Source: Rhodospirillales bacterium
Lineage (GTDB): Bacteria > Pseudomonadota > Alphaproteobacteria > JAJFIK01
Reading direction: 5' to 3'
Assembly: GCA_021775005.1 (NCBI GenBank)
Contig: JAJFIK010000082.1
Coordinates: 1-64,000, forward strand
Length of the DNA stretch: 64,000 bases
Below the pieces are notes generated by a model, which did no database searches, was not told the origin of the DNA, and was given only the letters and a program-made list of their open reading frames with translations. Made by a program: the position numbers and the translations under genes. Each line of letters opens with the position of its first letter. Within the stretch, counting starts at the first letter, position 1. This document shows positions 23,670 through 34,178 of this stretch, in pieces.

Positions 23670-23713
23670 TGGCGGACCCAGCAGGGCTCGAACCCGCGAC
23701 CAGCGATTATGAG
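23670..23713 (-). repeat. tRNA 3'-half remnant (CAU anticodon type), insertion junction
   Basis: On the minus strand the sequence reads as the 3' half of a tRNA: anticodon loop CTCATAA, the variable loop, a T arm with GGTTCGAGCCC, the acceptor strand GGGTCCG and an encoded CCA end. The 5' half is absent. The intact source tRNA (5' end expected GGACCCA) is not in this window. The base pairs left of the anticodon are replaced by the arm shared with 29530-29622. Interpreted as an attR-type junction of a tRNA-targeted element. Confidence 0.7.
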
Positions 23714-23806
23714 GTAGGTCATAAGCCAATAAAATCAAAGGCATTAGACACTTCTGAGGCTCATTTCGTGCGCTAAGACCCAGGGACATGCGCGGAAGTA
23801 TCTAAC
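23714..23806. repeat. Arm repeat A, partner of 29530-29622
   Basis: About 93 bp aligned without gaps to 29530-29622 at roughly 78% identity by hand count; both contain CCAATAAAATCAA, TTAGACACTTC, ATTTCGTGCG and TAACG at the same spacing. Within each copy the word GTTAGACACTTC occurs near one end and again inverted near the other (GTTAGATACTTC on the minus strand here), which fits arm-type integrase-binding sites. Its right end overlaps the stop codon of the RND pump gene. Confidence 0.65.
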
Positions 23807-26800
23807 GCGCCTCCGCTGCTCGATCGGGAATCATCAGGCTATAGAGCACCGGCACAACGCCGAGCGTCAGGAACGTGCCCACAAACAGGCCGAAGGCAAT
23901 GGCCGACGCCATGCCGTAGAACAGCGCGCCGCCAAACAGGATCAATGGGATCAGGCCAAGCGCCGTGGTCAGCGTTGTCATCAGGATGGGCCGCAGGCGC
24001 GAAAGACACGCCACCATAATCGCCTCGCGTTGGGCCTTACCCGCAGCTTCTTCCCCGACGATGCGGTCGATCAGAACAATCCCGTTATTGATAACAATCC
24101 CGGCGAGGCTGACGAGGCCCAAAAGCACCATGAACCCGAAGGACGCCTGCATCACAAGAAGACCGAGCACGGCACCGATGAGCACCAGCGGAATGGTTAG
24201 AAGAATAATGCCACCGCGGCGAATGGAGTTAAATTGCGCAATGAGCAGCAGCGCGATCACCCCAAATGCCATCGGGAAGTTGGCAAACAAGCGGCTTTGC
24301 GCCTTGGCCTGATCTTCCGGCTCACCGCCCACTTCGACACGGTAGCCCGGCGGCAGATCAACAGCGGCAACGGTCGCTTCCATTTCCGCGACAATCTCGC
24401 CTGCGCCCATAGCCGTGGATCGCCCGCTGATGGTGACGACCCGCTCTAAATTGCGACGCTCAATCCGGGGGTAGACCCAGCGCGGGGCACCGGCGGCAAT
24501 CTCGCCCAAGCGAATGAAATCCTGATCCCGATCCGACCACACCAGGGCGGATTCCACAGCCGTCAAAGATTCCCGAGCCGTATCCTCACCGCGAATGATG
24601 ACCGGTATTTCAAAGCGGCCCTCGCGTACCGTCGTTACCTCAAGGCCGTTAAACGCGCTGTGCAAGGAACTGGCAACCGATGCAGAGGAAACCCCTGCGC
24701 GCCGCGCGCGTTCCTGATCAATCTGCAAATCAAGCTCAAGTACACGGTTTTCCCAATCGATCGAAATGCCAGTCGCTCCTGGCACAACACGAAAAGCTGC
24801 TTCCAGCTCCAGCGCGCCAGCAAACAGTTCATCTGCATCTGGTCCAACCAGTCGATACTCTACCCGGCCGGTTTCGCTGGGCCCAAACCACATAGCTTTG
24901 GCGTCCGCGACGGCCTCGGGTAGATGCGCATCCATAAAGCCATTTGTGCGCGCGAGCATCTCCGGAACCTGCCGATGGGATGCCACATTAACCAGAATGA
25001 AGGCGCGATTGGGGGCGGGCTGGGACGGCGAAAGCGCCAAATAGAACCGAGGTCCCCCCTCACCAACATACGCCACGTTGGACGTCACCTCGGGATTGAT
25101 ACTCTCATCGCTCAACCAAATAGCCAGACGGCGCGCGGCGGCTTCGGTCTCGCGGATGTCCGCACCGGCTTCCAGGTCCATGTAGATCAAGAACTGGTTG
25201 CGCTCGCTGGTGGGGAAAAACGCATTGGGGAGCTGTGACAAGGTAAAGATTGACACACCAAGCACCAGCAAGACCCCGCCAAGAAAGAGAAAACGAAAGC
25301 GCAACAGCGCGGAGATGAGCTTCTTGTATGGCGCGTAGAACCACCCACTGAAATCGCTGGAGGTGATCTCAGCTGGTGCCCCTTGCAGGGGCGTTACCTT
25401 TAGGAACCAAGCGCAAAGTGCGGGCGTAACAGTCATGGACAGCACCCACGAGGAAAGCAGCAGAAGAATGACCACCGCGCCCAGGGTGCCGACATATTCC
25501 CCCGCGGCACCGGCAATCAGGGTCAACGGCATAAAGGCCGCCACCGTGGTTAGGGATGACGACAAAAGCGGAATAGCGAGCGCCTTGCCCGATGCAATGG
25601 CGGCGTCATTGGGCTTTAGCCCACGTTCCATGCGCACCCGAATGTCTTCGGCCATGACGATGCCATTATCCACCAACAAGCCCAGCGCAATAATCACAGC
25701 GGCAATCGACATGCGCTGCAAATCAATGTCCATGAAGCTCATGAGAATGACGCCCGCGAGCATGGTGAGCGGGACAAAGGCGCCGACGATCATGCCGGCA
25801 CGCAAACCCAGAAACAGCATCACCACAAACAGCACAATAAAGAGCGTTTGGTAGACGTTGCTGAGCGCGCCATCCACCGCCACTTCAATCAGGTCCGGCT
25901 GGAATGAGGCATAGCCAAGCTCAAGGCCAATTGGCAGGTCGCCCTGAATGGCGGTGATCTCGCCGCTCAACACAGCGCCAAATCCCACATTGTCGATACC
26001 GTCATGGGTGGAGACCGCAATGACAACGGCTGGGCGTCCATTGAAAAACACAGGATTATCGGGCGGATCCTGGTATCCCCGGCGCACATCGGCAATGTCA
26101 CCCACACGCACAAGCTGACCCGTGCCGGGAATTTGGAAGGTGACATTGGCAACGTCGCCCTCATCCAAAATAGCGCCGGACGGTTCCACCACCAGGCGGC
26201 GTCCATCAGCGACAGCGACACCGCTTGGCGTTATCGTGTTCTGATCGGCAATCGCCTGCGCTGCGGCGGCGGGACCAATGCCCATCTGGGCCGCACGAAA
26301 CGGGTCGAACTCGATAAAAATCTGTTCTTCCTGCACGCCGTAAAGTTGAACTTTCCGCACGCCGTCCAAGGCGTAAATGCGGCGGCGGATGTTTTCCGCT
26401 TCATCGCGCATACGGGCATGGGAAAACCCATCGGACCAAAGGGCAATCGTTGCAATCGACACAAGACCGATGTCGTCTTCAACGAACACGCCACCTGATT
26501 GGTCAGGCAAATCAGCAGCAACGCGCTCAGCGCGATTGCGTATTTCCTGAATGGCGGCATCCACGTCATTGGTGAAATCTGTGATCTCCAGGTCAATGAT
26601 GGCCCGATCTCGCGTAGCGGAGGTGGAGATCGTTTCCACTTCCGGCACATCGCGCATCGCCTCTTCAATGGGCCGCGCGATCAGGGTCTCTATCTCCGTC
26701 GCGCTGAGCCCCGGCGCCGGTGCCATCACCGTCACATTCCTGATTTGGATGGTGGGGTCTTCCGCACTTGGGAAGTTCGCAAATGTCAGCAAGCCGCCAA

Positions 26801-32973: not shown

Positions 32974-34035
32974 CTAAGAAGAAAGTGTTGAATCTTGCTG
33001 TTTTTGCCCAGCTCTGAATTGGGAGGGCGTCAACCCAAATGTAGCTTTGAAGGCCCTGTTGAAAGGCGCTACGGACCCAAAGCCCGCACTTAGGGCCAGG
33101 GTCAAAATGGGCAGACGTGCTTTTTCGGGATCACTGAGTGCTGCTTTGATCTCGACCAGTCGGTAATGATTCACGAAAGCATTAAAGTTGCGGAAGCCAA
33201 GTCCCTGATTGATAGCTCGGCGCAATTGATACTCTGGCACTCGGATCGTTTGGGCAAGGCTGGCGAGGGTCAAGGTCTCATCACGAAAGGCGCCCGCCTC
33301 CATGGCCTCCTGGGCCTTCTTCATCAGTGCATTCTGTGGCGCTTTGGGCTGATCACCGTTAGGTCCGCGTGAAAGGGGATACAACTCCCGGCTCAATGTG
33401 GTGATCATCAGGGCAATCCCGGCCACGAGGATCAAAATTCCGGTTGTGTTAAGTAGCGTAATCCAGGCTGGCGGGGCGGCACCTGCAAGAACGAGCTCGG
33501 CTATGGCGACAAGAAGCATGTAGGCGCCTATGGAAACTACCACGTAAATCCGCAGTTTGCGCCGCCGCTCCAGCAGATCACCGCCGAAGCCAGCAATGCC
33601 CGAAAAGAGAATGTGAAGCACAAGCGCCACGCCTGCCAACTGCAGGACAACATCACTCACCTGAGTAAGTGCATGCGCTTCAATTGCGTGACCGACAAAG
33701 CGAATGGAGATAATTGCAGCAAATCCGCAAGCAACCAAGCCTTCAAGGCGGCTCAAGCGGAACACGTCGTCAAACAGCGACCGGGCAAACAGCCAAAACA
33801 AAAACGGGTTCAGTAAGCAAAGCATCACCAGCGGAACAAAAACGACGCCCGGCAGAGATCCGAACCACGGTGCTGAGCAGATCAAGTATGCGCTCGCCCC
33901 AAGACTAAACAGGGCACCCAAGGCAGCTGCGCGAACCTGCAGCGCCATGCTGGCCTGATGAGCGCAAATCAGCAGTGCGATCCCGACCCCCGCGCCGCGC
34001 AAGAGGCTATCGAACATGGCGAGTTCGTTGTCCAT
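32974..34035 (-). CDS. Membrane-embedded AraC-family regulator
   Basis: A 353-residue protein: seven hydrophobic segments in residues ~1-215 and an AraC/XylS-type DNA-binding domain at ~240-345 (ETLTLASLAQTIRVPEYQLRRAINQGLG ... GFGSVAPFNRAFKATFGLTPSQFR). This build, a 7-helix sensor fused to a HTH, suggests direct signalling from the membrane. It starts 68 bp from the 3' end of tRNA-Lys, making it the first gene of the right cassette, 91 bp before the methyltransferase gene. Confidence 0.9.
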   Translation of the reverse strand: MDNELAMFDSLLRGAGVGIALLICAHQASMALQVRAAALGALFSLGASAYLICSAPWFGSLPGVVFVPLVMLCLLNPFLFWLFARSLFDDVFRLSRLEGLVACGFAAIISIRFVGHAIEAHALTQVSDVVLQLAGVALVLHILFSGIAGFGGDLLERRRKLRIYVVVSIGAYMLLVAIAELVLAGAAPPAWITLLNTTGILILVAGIALMITTLSRELYPLSRGPNGDQPKAPQNALMKKAQEAMEAGAFRDETLTLASLAQTIRVPEYQLRRAINQGLGFRNFNAFVNHYRLVEIKAALSDPEKARLPILTLALSAGFGSVAPFNRAFKATFGLTPSQFRAGQKQQDSTLSS

Positions 34036-34102
34036 ACCACCTTCTTAGCCGTGAAGCGCTTGAAAGGAAATGGAAGTCAAAATCGGAGCCGTTAGAATTG
34101 AA

Positions 34103-34178
34103 TGGTGAGCCCAGCAGGGCTCGAACCTGCGACCCGCTGATTAAGAGTCAGCTGCTCTACCAACTGAGCTATGGGCCC
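34103..34178 (-). tRNA. tRNA-Lys (anticodon CTT)
   Basis: A 76-nt cloverleaf with encoded CCA: acceptor GGGCCCA pairs with TGGGCTC (one G-U), D arm GCTC...GAGC, anticodon stem GCTGA/TCAGC around loop CTCTTAA, T arm with GGTTCGAGCCC... The 3' half is the target site of the insertion series on its 3' side; the gene itself remains intact as expected for an attL-type junction. Confidence 0.96.

Follow-up and report, generated by a model that had tools for sequence, protein, structure and literature searches.

We analysed a 64,000-nucleotide stretch of DNA (the window; positions 1–64,000 of contig JAJFIK010000082.1) from a Rhodospirillales bacterium, represented by an alphaproteobacterial metagenome-assembled genome (MAG) of 2.85 Mb in 97 contigs that is 97.8% complete. 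Read along the minus strand, the window holds an intact tRNA-Lys(CTT), then 4.6 kb to a tRNA 3'-half remnant with its arm (remnant A and arm A), then 5.8 kb to a second such pair (remnant B and arm B). The intervening segments, cassettes 1 and 2, carry short runs of cargo genes, and elsewhere in the genome a third cassette lies at tRNA-Arg(TCT). These three insertions at two target tRNAs share arm sites of fixed geometry and contain no internal recombinase.

Results

The intact tRNA-Lys(CTT), the integration target, was located with ARAGORN at 34103–34178 on the minus strand. Sequence comparison places remnant A at 29485–29529 and remnant B at 23670–23713, both on the same strand, in agreement with a first-pass annotation of the window that had described one intact tRNA-Lys and two 3'-half remnants in the same orientation. 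Remnant A matches the tRNA-Lys 3' half at 40/40 positions beginning directly after the anticodon loop. One mismatch lies inside that loop, where identity breaks; remnant B is more diverged from tRNA-Lys. The repeat periods are 4,618 bp for cassette 1, close to the insertion of about 4.7 kb proposed earlier, and 5,815 bp for cassette 2. The similarity that had been noted beyond the remnants is strong, as the two tails (remnant plus arm) align over 142 bp at 81% identity (E=3e-33), and for the arms by themselves the score is 59, with 1000 shuffles reaching no more than 17.

Each arm is about 95 bp long and holds two arm-type sites, located by site search, which together form an inverted repeat. 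In arm A (29530–29624, minus strand) the inner site GCGTTAGACACTT lies at 29557–29569 on the plus strand and the outer site GCGTTAAACACTT at 29612–29624 on the minus strand, with the spacer TATTGATTTTATTGG at 29542–29556. Arm B (23714–23808, minus strand) carries GCATTAGACACTT at 23741–23753 (plus) and GCGTTAGATACTT at 23796–23808 (minus). The arm-site motif AAAATCnnnnnCGTTAGA, written with its variable positions as AAAATCnnnnnCRTTAGA, has three matches in the window, with 0.01 expected: arm A, arm B and the tRNA-side (P') end of cassette 1 (34079–34096, plus strand), 6 bp short of tRNA-Lys. Across the 2.85 Mb, the 11-mer GTTAGACACTT is found exactly three times, with one copy in arm A and the other two at the opposite ends of the tRNA-Arg cassette; with up to one mismatch, 6 of its 11 matches fall in arms or cassette ends. 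The paired arm motif TTAGACAC-N(30-60)-GTRTYTAA has exactly three occurrences in the genome, all of them adjoining a tRNA remnant. It has no match in either of the two congeners compared (G001 and G002), and a reversed-pattern control also gave none.

The third cassette emerged when the genome was searched with the tail and contig C60 yielded a tRNA-like fragment lacking annotation. This fragment is 97.6% identical to the 3' half of tRNA-Arg(TCT) and is located 2,689 bp downstream of that gene. The cassette (G000:C60:46156-48844; L110:6157-8845) is hipBA-like, with only a helix-turn-helix (HTH) protein and a HipA-like protein as sizeable genes; open reading frames (ORFs) and family searches revealed no recombinase gene. 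Arm sites are present at both ends. Just inside the tRNA-Arg remnant, the inverted pair CTTAGACAC ... AAGTGTCTAAC is the inner-site sequence of arms A and B, and the GTTAGACACTT site and the geometry are all that this cassette has in common with cassettes 1 and 2. The proposal of non-autonomous cassettes reusing arms at different tRNA genes is thus borne out within this genome: a third cassette with shared sites implies one arm specificity used at two tRNAs.

The surroundings of tRNA-Arg(TCT) are conserved. This genome and both congeners all have NDUS4 and tRNA-Arg at one border and Sel1 at the other, and a FAD oxidase follows Sel1 here and in G001. Between tRNA-Arg and Sel1, this genome has the hipBA-like cassette, G001 has other genes spanning 6.7 kb (G001:C280; L108:3542-11200) and G002 has one large ATPase-like gene (G002:C64; L237:780-4200). 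Because the flanks are the same and the contents differ, this interval is, judged from gene order, a hotspot and the hipBA segment an insertion.

Spacing is nearly invariant among the three cassettes. The inner site lies 29 bp from the first anticodon-loop base in 3/3, and the starts of the two arm sites are 53, 53 and 55 bp apart. In attachment sites (attP) of lambda- and P4-like tyrosine integrases, a core is flanked by repeated arm-type sites. When the cassettes were tested against this layout, P-arm geometry was constant in all three, and a P' site was present in cassette 1 and the tRNA-Arg cassette; none was recognised in cassette 2. The loop-split tRNA, the displaced 3' half and the fixed-distance sites on one side, with a copy on the other side in those two cassettes, correspond to an attP with arm sites. 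Thus, we infer that the arms are integrase arm-type sites with consensus GCGTTAGACACTT, and predict that they are bound by an integrase. A crossover centred on the anticodon corresponds to site A of the Islander catalogue (PMC4383910). Additionally, the 3' halves of tRNA-Lys and tRNA-Arg agree at 38/45 positions, so that one integrase could plausibly fit both.

The five cargo genes of cassette 1 (29530–34102) are all on the minus strand. Family searches identified an AraC-type regulator (HTH_18; 32974–34035), a class I SAM methyltransferase (32235–32948), an MFS transporter (30889–32238) and a member of the fatty-acid hydroxylase family distantly related to the ornithine lipid hydroxylase OlsE (29968–30873); an ORF for a 132-amino-acid protein without a family match (29618–30016) ends in an Arg-stop, CGT TAA, inside arm A. 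Cassette 2 (23714–29484), also on the minus strand, encodes proteins of 131 (29013–29408), 106 (28757–29077) and 79 amino acids (28169–28408) without family matches, a MerR-family regulator (28371–28760), an RND periplasmic adaptor (26881–27972) and an RND efflux permease (23802–26867) whose C-terminal Arg-stop, CGT TAG, falls inside arm B. As the first-pass annotation had stated, neither segment contains a recombinase by ORF or family match, and in both the arm overlaps the stop codon of the last gene; the outer GCGTTAR of the arm supplies that Arg-stop (CGT TAR). The last stop of the hipBA-like cassette falls a few bases before the arm, not inside it. ORFs cover 95% of the cassette 1 segment and 93% of the cassette 2 segment, leaving scant space for a lost integrase.

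Relatives of the cargo occur in the congeners at positions distant from any detected tRNA. The RND permease and adaptor of cassette 2 have their closest congener relatives at G002:C30 (82% and 71% amino-acid identity). For cassette 1, relatives of the AraC-methyltransferase-MFS set lie at G001:C63 (50–64%) near a nar cluster. The two AraC-methyltransferase-MFS copies (G001:C63:18619-21788 and window 30889–34035) both lie near nar genes, in opposite relative orientation, and the G001 copy is accompanied by neither tRNA nor arm. The cassette 2 RND protein reads EAR* at its C-terminus, with the Arg-stop encoded by the arm, and its G002 relative reads EAKSET*. Together with the arm-encoded CGT TAA of cassette 1, this suggests that the arms were joined onto the ends of ordinary operons, although two cases may be a coincidence.

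Discussion

We consider mobilization in trans of non-autonomous integrative cassettes the most likely mechanism behind these insertions, and on balance a probable one. Each cassette would consist of an operon bordered by an attachment site for a tyrosine recombinase. Its P arm would comprise two arm-type sites in inverted orientation, placed 29 bp away from a crossover within the anticodon loop. Its P' end would hold one further site, as found for cassette 1 and the tRNA-Arg cassette, and the tRNA 3' half that it carries would restore the target gene. The lambda/P4-like integrase of a helper element would bind the arm sites and recombine the circular cassette into the tRNA gene. At tRNA-Lys, two rounds would have taken place: cassette 2 entered first and left remnant B, and cassette 1 then entered the restored tRNA and displaced remnant A. 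At tRNA-Arg(TCT), a single round would have brought in the hipBA-like cassette. We infer both the action of the integrase in trans and the order of insertion, the distal remnant being taken as the oldest because standard integration occurs at the intact tRNA.

Several results weigh against mobilization in trans. The MAG yields eight tyrosine-recombinase matches, of which seven have a SAM-like N-terminal domain and the eighth has none detected, yet an arm-binding domain was found in 0/8 (Pfam), and no helper was identified. Arm-site clusters were absent around the integrase loci examined in this genome and the congeners. The genome's own integrases were rejected as helper, having no arm-binding domain and no arms near the loci examined. 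No tRNA-linked arm was found in the 384 other genomes of a 385-genome alphaproteobacterial set, so that mobility between genomes is unsupported. Viral contigs of IMG/VR gave chance matches only, outside any tRNA context. At tRNA-Lys, neither congener offers a clean empty site: rodA and tRNA-Lys(CTT) share one neighbourhood in both, and both carry other genes downstream. Finally, the tRNA-Arg arm outside its sites aligns to arm A at chance level and to arm B marginally.

Searches of wider collections had similar outcomes. In plasmids and phages, all matches were to tRNA sequence, except for one Bradyrhizobium plasmid site. GTDB contigs, scanned with one exact spacer pattern, gave five scattered matches in various phyla, and the three inspected lacked an arm site or tRNA half; this negative is weak because of the single exact pattern. 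The expectation that the arm would recur beside other tRNA genes therefore held at tRNA-Arg within the genome, with no convincing case among the other alphaproteobacteria, IMG/VR or these GTDB contigs. An element combining the arm with a tyrosine recombinase, which the first-pass annotation had suggested looking for, did not appear, and no integrase-bearing element with related attachment sites was found in the MAG or the searched collections. MAGs often miss mobile elements, and incompleteness of this kind is a real alternative explanation for the missing helper. Separately, two adjacent tyrosine recombinase genes lie at the end of a short contig (G000:C13:3774-5650; L079).

The main rival is that the cassettes are decayed islands: former integrase-bearing integrative and conjugative elements (ICEs), integrative and mobilizable elements (IMEs) or phage-like islands that lost genes and became cis-mobilizable elements (CIMEs), with no movement in trans. 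Tandem arrays at tRNA genes are known to form in this way (PMC5704250), Dehalococcoides has ssrA islands without an integration module (PMC3146451), and the failure to find a helper fits decay. However, no fragment of an integrase could be recognised, and non-coding space is nearly absent from cassettes 1 and 2. All three cassettes are compact, the last gene either running into the arm or ending right beside it, and the cargo of cassettes 1 and 2 consists of small operons whose congener homologues lie away from detected tRNA genes. We therefore regard decay as unlikely, though as the strongest of the competing explanations.

The first-pass annotation had assigned remnant B to a separate junction derived from a CAT-anticodon tRNA, and its loop, CTCATAA, does resemble those of Met/Ile2 tRNAs. 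However, the genome contains no matching tRNA, and a tandem at one tRNA requires no second one. The acceptor strand TGGGTCC of remnant B pairs with the 5' half of tRNA-Lys (GGGCCCA), and the CCA of remnant B is followed by 16 bp that agree with the tRNA-Lys(CTT) flank of G001 at 15/16 positions (equalled by 8/2000 shuffles); the flank of remnant A resembles that of tRNA-Lys in G002 (6/2000 shuffles as good), both flank matches being short and selected from ten pairwise comparisons. A CAT-anticodon origin is thus improbable, and an older tRNA-Lys 3' half appears to be the best fit for remnant B. The flank matches support, short of proof, its position at an old chromosomal end. As the genes downstream of tRNA-Lys differ in both congeners (Tad-pilus-like in G001, from ORF reading), the ancestral junction is supported by the 16-bp match alone. 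The nar block to the left of remnant B is found on another contig in G001, and with neighbourhoods that differ beyond the flanks the region left of remnant B may itself have been rearranged. Also left of remnant B, a MerR gene (window 22245–22631) has a 69% relative inside the G001 tRNA-Arg-Sel1 interval.

It is very improbable that the arm instead acts through a folded structure, for example as a terminator, a small RNA or an attC-like recombination site. The inverted repeat of the sites and the folding of arm A relative to shuffles (z -2.85) point that way, but folding is inconsistent (z -1.74 for arm B and -0.58 for the tRNA-Arg arm, C), and the core order GTTRRRY...RYYYAAC is the reverse of attC; on these two grounds we ruled out attC-like folding. 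Conservation is seen in the site itself, in its constant spacing from the tRNA crossover and, for two elements, in a copy at the opposite end. A degenerate ordinary tRNA cluster with chance similarity can be all but dismissed, as tRNA 3' halves do resemble one another but the 81% identity runs 95 bp past the tRNA itself and the paired arm motif has no other occurrence in the genome, which already contradicts it.

The nearest known kin of the cassettes are CIMEs, tandem accretion products and additive tRNA islands (PMC5704250, PMC3146451, PMC10872708), to which they are close. CIMEs are described as decayed ICEs or IMEs that accrete with an integrase-bearing partner (PMC5704250). Like them, the cassettes retain attL and attR, lack integration and conjugation genes by ORF and family searches, and stand in tandem at one tRNA (PMC5704250). 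No int, mob or tra remnants were seen in the cassettes. Unlike CIMEs, they have no partner found here, hold few genes within 2.7–5.8 kb, and use one arm type at two tRNAs. In Dehalococcoides, the ssrA islands likewise carry cargo in tandem, with repeats of the target 3' end between islands and no integrase in some, but they use a single transfer-messenger RNA (tmRNA) target and a serine recombinase and have integrase-bearing relatives in the genus (PMC3146451). The additive flexible islands of Ca. Methylopumilus share tRNA-Lys(ctt) fragment repeats and variable cargo, although the repeats are 20 bp long and the part of that account drawn on here describes no arm (PMC10872708).

The first-pass annotation had likened the cassettes to tycheposons. 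The logic of cargo at tRNA genes, including the border tRNA, holds, but tycheposons encode a tyrosine recombinase in the portions of the accounts used here (PMC10872708, PMC11389934), and membership fails because the cassettes have no recombinase. Islander islands likewise combine an intact tRNA with a 3' fragment and an anticodon-loop crossover (PMC4383910), and the cassettes show the same arrangement of tDNA and displaced 3' fragment in the same orientation at least 2 kb apart. In contrast, Islander rejects candidates without an integrase (PMC4383910), which the cassettes lack; as it retains integrase-bearing islands only, short integrase-less cassettes are missed by design. Integron cassette arrays and clusters of attC sites lacking integron-integrases (CALINs) are defined by attC of the form RYYYAAC...GTTRRRY that folds as a single strand, and the reversed core and inconsistent folding seen here differ from that. 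The cassettes stand out for their small, operon-like size, for numbering three without a recombinase in a single genome, and for sharing one type of arm across two tRNAs.

Should movement in trans be correct, small native operons for efflux, lipid modification or toxin-antitoxin functions would spread with minimal mobile-element baggage, and tRNA hotspots could change contents without a visible integrase. We tentatively raise a further possibility, which is doubtful at present: that minimal arm-plus-operon cassettes capture native operons, with the arm supplying the stop codon, and that one helper of fixed specificity serves any fitting tRNA 3' half, the core being exchangeable and the arm kept. 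The combination of a remnant, a 29-bp interval and a pair of arm sites provides a concrete signature for finding such cassettes.

The Bradyrhizobium site noted above lies on plasmid NZ_CP121651.1 of Bradyrhizobium sp. CB82 (151344–151417; L041:10001-10074), where a tRNA-Lys 3' half follows TATTGATTTTACTAGG. It carries TATTGATTTTA together with that 3' half and was rejected as the same arm, having a different inverted repeat, CCGACAAGGGTAAAACC...GGTTTGTCGG; its architecture is comparable, with another arm, and no integrase was found among the readable neighbouring ORFs. Elsewhere in the window, a permuted (two-piece) tmRNA gene lies at 52931–53277.

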